DNA of 10,243 nt, taken from positions 1-10,243 of the forward strand of contig JALULB010000192.1 of the NCBI GenBank assembly GCA_027041035.1. The letters are read 5' to 3'. Below the pieces are notes generated by a model. That model saw nothing but the letters and a program-made list of their open reading frames with translations. It did no database searches and was not told the origin of the DNA. Position numbers and translations under genes: made by a program. Positions 704 through 2,515 of the stretch are shown one piece after another. The DNA is from Sedimenticola sp. (GTDB taxonomy: Bacteria > Pseudomonadota > Gammaproteobacteria > Chromatiales > Chromatiaceae). Position 1 is the first letter of the stretch. Every line of letters starts with the position of its first letter.

Positions 704-717
704 TTGACTGAAGTCAA
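704..717 (+). promoter_or_regulatory. FNR/DNR-like box (perfect palindrome) upstream of nirS
   Basis: TTGACTGAAGTCAA is a perfect dyad, TTGAC-N4-GTCAA, of the CRP/FNR-family type. DNR and NNR sites in denitrifiers commonly have TTGAC or TTGAT half-sites. With the box at the class II position -41.5, transcription of nirS would start near 752 and leave a leader of about 39 nt. The matching -10 window (740-745, CAGACT) is poor; a better hexamer, TAGATT (747-752), is offset by 7 bp. This is the best candidate for NO- or anoxia-dependent control of nirS. Confidence 0.7.
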
Positions 718-720
718 GGT

Positions 721-790
721 GTCAGGCCTTCGCTCTCGGCAGACTGTAGATTCCAATTACGCTACGTAACTTGCCGAGAGGAGGCCTGAC
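721..790 (+). promoter_or_regulatory. Inverted repeat in the nirS leader that can sequester the Shine-Dalgarno
   Basis: The left arm (721-741) and right arm (772-790) pair as two 9-bp perfect helices (721-729 with 782-790; 733-741 with 772-780). They are interrupted only by a 3-versus-1 internal bulge, and the loop is 30 nt (742-771). The right arm contains the strong ribosome-binding site GAGGAGG (778-784), 6 nt before the ATG, and position 720 could also pair with the A of the ATG. A transcript including 721 would hide the ribosome-binding site. One starting near 752 would lack the left arm and be free to translate. A DNA-level role as a protein operator is an alternative. Confidence 0.6.
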
Positions 791-2515
791 ATGGCTGCAT
801 CTTACCCGAAACTCAAGACGCTCGCCGCCGCGGTATCGCTGGTCACATTGAGTGGCATGGCCGCGCCGACATTCGCCGATAGCCACAATTCACCCGAAGC
901 CAAGTATCAGGGCGCGGCATCCGCCGTCAGCTCTGAGGACACCAAGGACTTTCTCGACGAAGAAGGCCCCAAGATGACGAAGGAAGAATACGCCTTCGCG
1001 AAGAAAACCTTCTTCGAGCGTTGCGCCGGTTGTCACGGTGTGTTGCGCAAGGGCGCCACCGGCAAACCCTTGACGACGGATATCACGCGCAAGCGCGGCA
1101 CCGAGTATCTGAAAGCCTTCATCACCTACGGTTCCGCGGCCGGCATGCCGAACTGGGGTACCTCTGGCGTGCTCTCCGACAAGGAAATCGACATCATGGC
1201 GCGCTACTTGCAGCACGAGCCGCCACAACCGCCGGAATGGGGCATGGCGGAGATGAAGGGTACCTGGAAGGTGACCGTGCCGGTCGAGAAGCGGCCGAAG
1301 AAGAAGATGAACCACTACAACCTGGACAATGTCTTCTCGGTAACCTTGCGTGACGCCGGCAAGATCATGCTGATAGACGGCGACACCAAGAAGCCGATCA
1401 ATACCATCAAGACCGGTTACGCGGTACATATCTCGCGCCTGTCTTCCAGTGGCCGCTATCTGTTCGTCATCGGTCGCGACGCGCGCGTCAACCTGATCGA
1501 CCTGTGGATGAAGAAGCCGGATACGGTGGCCGAGATCAAGATCGGCATGGAAGCGCGTTCGGTGGAGACCTCCAAGTACAAGGGTTACGAGGACAAGTAC
1601 GCGATTGCCGGCGCCTACTGGCCGCCACAGTACGTGATCATGGATGGCAACACGCTGGAGCCGAAGAAGATCGTTTCGACGCGCGGCTATACCGTCGATA
1701 CCCAGGAATACCATCCGGAACCGCGTGTCGCGGCCATTGTCGCGTCGCATGAGCATCCGGAATTCATCGTCAACGTCAAGGAAACCGGTAAGGTGCTGCT
1801 GGTCAACTATGCGGATATCGAGAATCTGACGGTGACCACCATTCCGGCGGCGCGCTACCTGCACGATGGCGGCTGGGATCGTACTCACCGTTACTTCCTG
1901 ACGGCGGCCAACAAGTCGAACAAGATCGTTGTAATCGACTCCAAGGAGCAGAAGAACATCGCGATGATCGATGTCACCAAGATCCCGCATCCGGGACGTG
2001 GCGCGAACCTCAATGATCCGGTGTATGGTCCGGTATGGGTCACTAGCGCGCTGGGTAACGAGAACGTCACCGTCATCGGTACCGATCCGGTCAAGCATCC
2101 GAAGAGTGCGTGGAAGGTTGTGCGTGTGTTGAAGGGACAGGGCGGCGGTTCGTTGTTCGTCAAGTCGCATCCGAAGTCGAAGAACCTGTGGGTGGATACC
2201 CCGCTCAATCCGAGTGCCAAGATCAGCGGTTCGGTCGCGGTATTCGATGTCGATCATCTCGACAAGGGCTACAAGGTCTTGCCGATCGCCAAGTGGGCCG
2301 ATCTGGGCGAGGGTCCGAAACGCGTCGTGCAGCCGGAATACAACAAGGCCGGCGACGAGGTATGGTTCTCGGTATGGAACGGCAAGGAGCAGAAATCAGC
2401 CATCGTTATCGTCGATGACAAGACACGCAAGCTGAAGAAGGTGATCAAGGACAAGCGTCTGATCACCCCGACCGGCAAGTTCAACGTGTACAACACGGTT
2501 CACGATATCTACTGA
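791..2515 (+). CDS. nirS: Cytochrome cd1 nitrite reductase NirS (574 aa)
   Basis: NirS is the periplasmic homodimeric dissimilatory nitrite reductase that reduces nitrite to NO with heme c and heme d1. Residues 1-29 form a Sec signal peptide with a likely cut after TFA. The N-terminal cytochrome c domain has C78-A-G-C81-H82 and Met119 in GMPNW; the 37-residue His-to-Met spacing equals that of the Pseudomonas aeruginosa enzyme. The rest is the eight-bladed d1 propeller. By spacing, His213 (YAVHISR) is the proximal d1 ligand, and His358 (RYLHDGGWD) and His400 (KIPHPGRG) are the distal catalytic pair (145 and 42 residues apart, as in P. aeruginosa His182/327/369). Tyr39 may be the N-terminal tyrosine that caps d1 in some homologues. 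The length is full and the gene looks intact. The start is set by GAGGAGG 6 nt upstream. The downstream palindrome probably ends or stabilises its transcript separately from nirC. Confidence 0.97.

Follow-up and report, generated by a model that had tools for sequence, protein, structure and literature searches.

A hairpin over the nirS ribosome-binding site of Sedimenticola as a candidate start-site gate

Does the place at which transcription of a respiratory gene begins decide whether the resulting message can be translated? The question is posed by a stretch of 10,243 nucleotides from Sedimenticola sp. (assembly GCA_027041035.1, contig JALULB010000192.1; hereafter the window), in which the ribosome-binding site of nirS lies in one arm of a long hairpin and the putative promoter of the gene overlaps the other. 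The source is one small group of uncultured denitrifying bacteria, and genes with nir-type domains lie 3′ of nirS in the window. An earlier note on this DNA had proposed that transcripts arriving from upstream would carry the whole hairpin and be poorly translated, leaving the correct promoter alone to make the reductase. The locus holds the following features:

277-630, minus strand: divergent gene of 117 amino acids, family unassigned (open reading frame)
721-729, plus strand: left arm of the outer helix, pairing with 782-790
733-741, plus strand: left arm of the inner helix, pairing with 772-780
772-780, plus strand: right arm of the inner helix, from the inverted-repeat listing and the fold, without variation among genus members
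778-784, plus strand: Shine-Dalgarno sequence GAGGAGG, six bases 5′ of the ATG at 791
782-790, plus strand: right arm of the outer helix, from the inverted-repeat listing and the fold, without variation among genus members
791-2515, plus strand: nirS, cytochrome cd1 nitrite reductase (PF02239, Cytochrom_D1, E 3.5e-150; PF13442, E 2.4e-12)

The product of the divergent gene had no match in a Pfam search; the gene itself has an aligned counterpart beside nirS in both of the Sedimenticola sp. MAG contigs taken as other members of the genus, JALSSX010000300.1 (L037) and JALVEB010000029.1 (L038). Two other inverted-repeat elements lie in the window. That at 2-122 (arms 2-37 and 87-122, 89% complementary) looks like a MITE-type mobile repeat, with copies of about 90% identity in stretches of other genus genomes and an 88% copy adjoining the nirS-like gene of another family (L014). 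The second, at 2521-2688 directly 3′ of nirS, has arms of 51 nt that are 78% complementary, copies elsewhere in its own genome (L220, 93%; L211, 74%) and shorter copies in stretches of G002.

The two 9-bp helices described by the earlier note (721-729 with 782-790, 733-741 with 772-780) are indeed exact inverted repeats, the inner helix appearing as such in the repeat listing and the outer within a 16-nt pair of 88% match. In a fold of 700-830 the outer helix can be extended, in RNA whose 5′ end lies before 719, by U720-A791 and a G719-U792 wobble, A791 being the A of the nirS start codon. Folded as RNA, 721-793 reaches -38.5 kcal/mol where its shuffles average -17.7 (z -7.25, with none of 200 shuffles as good), and 752-850 folds no better than its shuffles (z +1.63). 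Shuffling 721-739 alone addresses the left arm itself: in each of the three genus genomes, none of 3000 shuffles reached the observed cost of opening positions -18 to +3, and the left arm of L038, its six changes included, still beats all 3000. Total fold energy is not unique to this leader, since 2 of 390 background leaders reach -38.5 kcal/mol or lower and 15 of 390 reach -32 or lower (the background comprising 408 crudely called genes, 390 of them used, from 80 stretches totalling 723,437 bases of the three genus genomes), and fold z-scores alone do not separate the genus from other leaders (L086, z -3.76, versus L038, -3.36). The leader stands out, rather, by the position of its fold, which covers the ribosome site, and by the fold's need for sequence 5′ of the predicted start.

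Several familiar readings of such a structure were considered and set aside. No intrinsic terminator, as a G+C-rich stem followed by a T run, was found in 1-790 or 600-900; a known RNA family was rejected, the single Rfam match in 600-900 having E 1.2 and 16.2 bits where the gathering score is 80.7; an RNA thermometer was rejected because even at 70 °C opening takes 18.2 kcal/mol; and a dispersed repeat was dropped, since in the three genus genomes a 101-base leader query found full matches in the three nirS leaders alone, with four other partial matches (E 0.106 to 3.09). Among the loci examined, that query matched only the copies of the L037 and L038 nirS leaders.

Where, then, would transcription of nirS begin? 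A comparative promoter profile was drawn from the window together with the best 80 of 567 confirmed nirS loci and 25 further ones, 106 in all. An FNR-type box with a plausible start was present in 91 of the 106, giving 85 distinct leaders once six duplicates were merged, and the remaining 15 had none by the rule used. The 85 leaders are a sample weighted towards close relatives, with starts set by a simple rule so that a few may be wrong. Aligned on the box, they show GG directly after it, then some 20 bases almost without conservation, and, 23 to 28 bases past the box, TAnnnT (0.20 bits at the first T, 0.44 at the A and 0.51 at the last T). This layout of box, GG and a -10 element at fixed distance is that of class II activator promoters of the FNR/CRP type, and the profile accordingly places the box near -41.5 with the -10 element at fixed distance. 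Scored against a profile built without the three genus members, the leader in the window resolves into these elements:

673-686, plus strand: weaker FNR-type box TTGATCTGGATAAA, from its nirS promoter profile score
704-717, plus strand: main predicted FNR/Dnr-type box TTGACTGAAGTCAA, the same in all three genus members (L037 and L038 each differ at 0 of 14 bases)
740-745, plus strand: predicted -10 element CAGACT, at the TAnnnT position of the 85-leader profile and unchanged in L037 and L038
752, plus strand: predicted transcription start, from box and -10 spacing

The main box scores 20.34 bits in the window, 21.39 in L037 and 19.93 in L038. With the box at 704-717 and CAGACT at the conserved spacing, transcription would therefore start near 752, past the whole left arm, and the comparative profile thus favours the start that the earlier note had predicted from the box. 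The same note had looked to the 673-686 box as a maker of the long form, and here the profile is much less kind: that box scores 8.25 bits in the window and 9.08 in L037, is not conserved in L038, the G001 relative (-5.01), and has TGAAGT where its -10 element should stand. No sigma-70-like site was found in 1-790.

The weaker box bears on the possibility that the main nirS RNA itself starts upstream, hairpin included, and that RNase III, a helicase, a small RNA or a ligand then opens the hairpin. By arithmetic, a start directed by 673-686 would fall at 721, the very first base of the outer helix, and opening by RNase III has a precedent in the Escherichia coli adhE ribosome site, as described in PMC5371410. 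Set against this are the scores of 8.25 and -5.01 bits for the upstream box beside 20.34 and 19.93 for the main one, the want of any Rfam family at threshold in 600-900, and a helix that stays shut under heat (18.2 kcal/mol at 70 °C). We regard an upstream main start as distinctly improbable.

The consequence of the 5′ end for the ribosome site was measured as the predicted cost of opening -18 to +3 in RNA beginning just after the box, compared with RNA beginning at the predicted start. By this measure the box-to-start sequence adds 25.3, 21.8 and 13.4 kcal/mol in the three genus members, which rank as the top three of the 85 leaders (drawn largely from the best 80 of 567 loci); the next adds 6.7. 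The value varies with the chosen 5′ end, being 23.3, 17.4 and 11.7 kcal/mol when counted from 718. With the same geometry, none of 390 background genes reaches 13.4 kcal/mol, the largest value being 10.9. Moving the 5′ end through the window, the predicted cost is 30-34 kcal/mol for 680-721, 18.5 at 733, 11.3 at 736, 9.7 at 739 and about 9 from 742 onwards; a start at 752 would therefore lie wholly on the open side. The predicted probability that GGAGG is unpaired rises from 0.014 in RNA from 721 to 0.448 in RNA from 752; in L038 the corresponding values are 0.205 in the long form, in which GGAGG still stays mostly paired, and 0.430 in the short one. The earlier proposal that longer transcripts bury the ribosome site is thus borne out by the folding model, in which the predicted occlusion is strong as long as the 5′ end lies no later than about 733 and gains nothing once it lies at 742 or beyond. 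Given the rank among leaders and the background, the geometry is well supported as structure, and so is the dependence of the predicted occlusion on the start site.

This arrangement does not appear to be a device of the wider regulon, a reading we dropped: among 20 sites with box and GG in the three genomes, high values occur at the three nirS sites, the 12 other sites with a testable start adding at most 2.7 kcal/mol and five having no testable start. At L229 and L231 another FNR-box gene, seemingly encoding a signal peptide, carries the same ribosome site as nirS, CCGAGAGGAGG, without a left arm; it begins about 85 nt after its predicted transcription start, and the added costs are 2.7 and 0.3 kcal/mol.

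The best explanation of these results is that the nirS hairpin is a selected start-site gate, a model-based reading that we hold with moderate confidence. There would be one main class II promoter of the FNR/Dnr type, with its box at 704-717, its -10 element at 740-745 and its start at about 752, and the DNA from box to -10 would double as the left arm of a hairpin, with the Shine-Dalgarno sequence in the right arm. Messenger RNA started at 752 would be arm-less, with an ordinary ribosome site; RNA started at or 5′ of about 733 would include the arm and have its ribosome site caught up in an extended helix. Translation of nirS would in this way depend on RNA made from the gene's own promoter, the logic seen in gene e of phage T4.

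The strategy has precedents. The IS10 transposase is guarded against outside promoters in that RNA entering from outside hides its ribosome site; IS10 is a mobile element, whereas nirS is a metabolic gene. The likeness to T4 gene e goes further, for in both a longer RNA hides the ribosome site and a promoter within the DNA of the 5′ arm yields arm-less RNA, by prediction in nirS. According to PMC3014915 and PMC2988022, the longer early RNAs of this lysozyme gene hide the ribosome site, RNAs from late promoters within the 5′-arm sequence leave it free, and the reduction given by review is 100-fold; I-TevI follows the same plan, as do I-TevII, I-TevIII, segB and mobE of phage Aeh1. Held against gene e and I-TevI, the nirS leader has its ribosome site in a helix of the longer RNA according to structure prediction, and a promoter inside the 5′-arm DNA that would make arm-less RNA according to the comparative promoter profile. 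It differs from gene e in being the leader of a chromosomal respiratory gene with an FNR/Dnr-type promoter, known here from sequence prediction. adhE shares with nirS a metabolic function and a ribosome site buried in RNA structure, by prediction in nirS; it is freed by RNase III cleavage, whereas the main nirS RNA is predicted to be arm-less from the outset. A literature search for chromosomal parallels brought up none that turns on the start site: in ISPpu9 a 5′-UTR structure is proposed to block translation and is opened by a small RNA, not by the choice of start site. Other nirS promoters with an FNR box share the box, GG and -10 anatomy of the window and differ in adding at most 6.7 kcal/mol upstream of the start (82 leaders, within the sample based on the best 80 of 567 loci). 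The earlier note knew of no such mechanism described for nirS. For nirS itself this stood, in that we found neither a leader mechanism nor a mapped nirS start in the open-licence literature, and the accessible portions of one review hold no nirS leader control; the mechanism as such is already described for T4 gene e and I-TevI.

How is the hairpin distributed among relatives? It occurs in all three genus genomes examined and is absent from the 82 other leaders of the sample, where at most 6.7 kcal/mol is added; the nearest outside leader among the loci listed, L039 (NirS 81% identical), has no hairpin and adds 2.4 kcal/mol. The right arm, 772-790, is invariant in L037 and L038. In the left-arm region, 718-739, there are 1 of 22 differences from the window in L037 and 6 of 22 in L038, compared with 7 of 17 and 4 of 17 in the spacer between the boxes and 81 of 280 and 87 of 273 at the fourfold sites of nirS, so that the L038 arm has changed at about the neutral rate. 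The close match of L037 is discounted because the first 75 nirS codons are also unusually similar (4 of 37 fourfold differences, against 11 of 32 in L038). The unusual likeness of the window and L037 covers 704-1015, a tract running from the main box to roughly codon 75, and does not extend to the DNA just upstream, possibly owing to a recombination tract or to constraint on the start region.

Counting one inner pair that lies one column off (U771 for U772, both U), 14 of the 18 arm pairs never vary, one is weakened to a wobble and three are broken in one or both relatives; no pair has both sides changed among the three sequences. At the six positions where L038 departs from the window, L039 has the window base at four (729, 730, 732 and 734), the L038 base at one (727) and neither at one (735), and since the outgroup shares the window base at four of six, L038 has probably lost pairs rather than the window gained them. 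The expectation that the arms would exist and covary in relatives was therefore borne out in part: the arms are present throughout the genus genomes examined, without covariation and with several pairs lost in one species. In trials of random substitution, as much occlusion was retained in 5.4% for L037 and in 8-9% for L038. Taking together the lack of compensation, the loss in L038 and these trials, selection on arm pairing is at most suggested.

These same observations feed the chief rival to the gate, which is that the hairpin is a genus-specific inverted repeat that arose in the ancestor of the genus and is without a selected role, longer RNAs being too rare to matter and the left arm drifting. 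Its confinement to one genus in the 85-leader sample (best 80 of 567), the absence of covarying pairs, the pairs probably lost in L038 as judged by L039, the neutral trials that retain occlusion, and the lack of an obvious source of long RNA in the sigma-70 scan of 1-790 or among the genes upstream in L037 all fit this reading. It accords less well with a changed L038 arm that outdoes all 3000 of its shuffles, or with GTCAGG and TCGGCA, which are retained in all three genomes and are both parts that pair; simple inverted duplication of the right arm would moreover have given an arm two bases shorter than the present left one, yet box and -10 are 22 bases apart here as in L039. On balance we hold a repeat with no role to be less likely than the gate.

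The retention of GTCAGG and TCGGCA, and the position of the arm inside the promoter, could also mean that the left arm is a DNA element, perhaps one bound by a further regulator in the stretch from activator box to -10, and that its RNA pairing is incidental. The spacer from box to -10 is almost without conservation in the 85 leaders, however, the arms are 30 (inner) and 52 (outer) bases apart, which is long for a dimer site, and elsewhere in the three genomes the leader query has only partial matches (best E 0.106), all of which make a DNA element very improbable.

A gate needs something to exclude, and the source of longer RNA is the main gap in the story of the gate. The earlier note spoke of read-through to be silenced. 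In the 3-kb upstream flank, examined in L037 alone among the genus relatives, the recognisable genes run the opposite way: a chemotaxis-type protein (E 6.5e-36) and a glycosyltransferase (E 2.5e-11) are both on the minus strand, as is the divergent gene beside nirS. Seven plus-strand open reading frames tested there had no Pfam match, and no recognisable gene in the same direction was found within the 3 kb. Because the recognisable upstream genes lie on the minus strand, simple read-through from a neighbour is unlikely in L037, which leaves the weak 673-686 box or spurious initiation as the source of any longer RNA.

In favour of the start-site gate, then, stand the promoter profile, the three highest values of added occlusion, the empty upper range of the background and the arm shuffles; against it stand the lack of compensatory change, the near-neutral arm of L038, the lack of an upstream codirectional gene in L037 and the absence of the hairpin from 82 leaders. 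We infer that the arm may owe its existence to the occlusion it confers on misplaced transcripts. The fuller claim, that a chromosomal respiratory gene carries a gate in the style of T4 lysozyme, with the activated promoter alone supplying RNA that can be translated and spurious RNA making no reductase, is put forward more tentatively.

NirS makes nitric oxide, which is toxic if its production falls out of step with NO reduction. If the gate is real, a leader that blocks translation of all RNA but that of the regulated promoter would give denitrification a further, leak-proof level of control, at which spurious RNA could not produce the NO-making reductase out of season, and a phage-type strategy would be at work in a respiratory gene. 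Long-leader reporter fusions of such genes may then seem silent for structural reasons.
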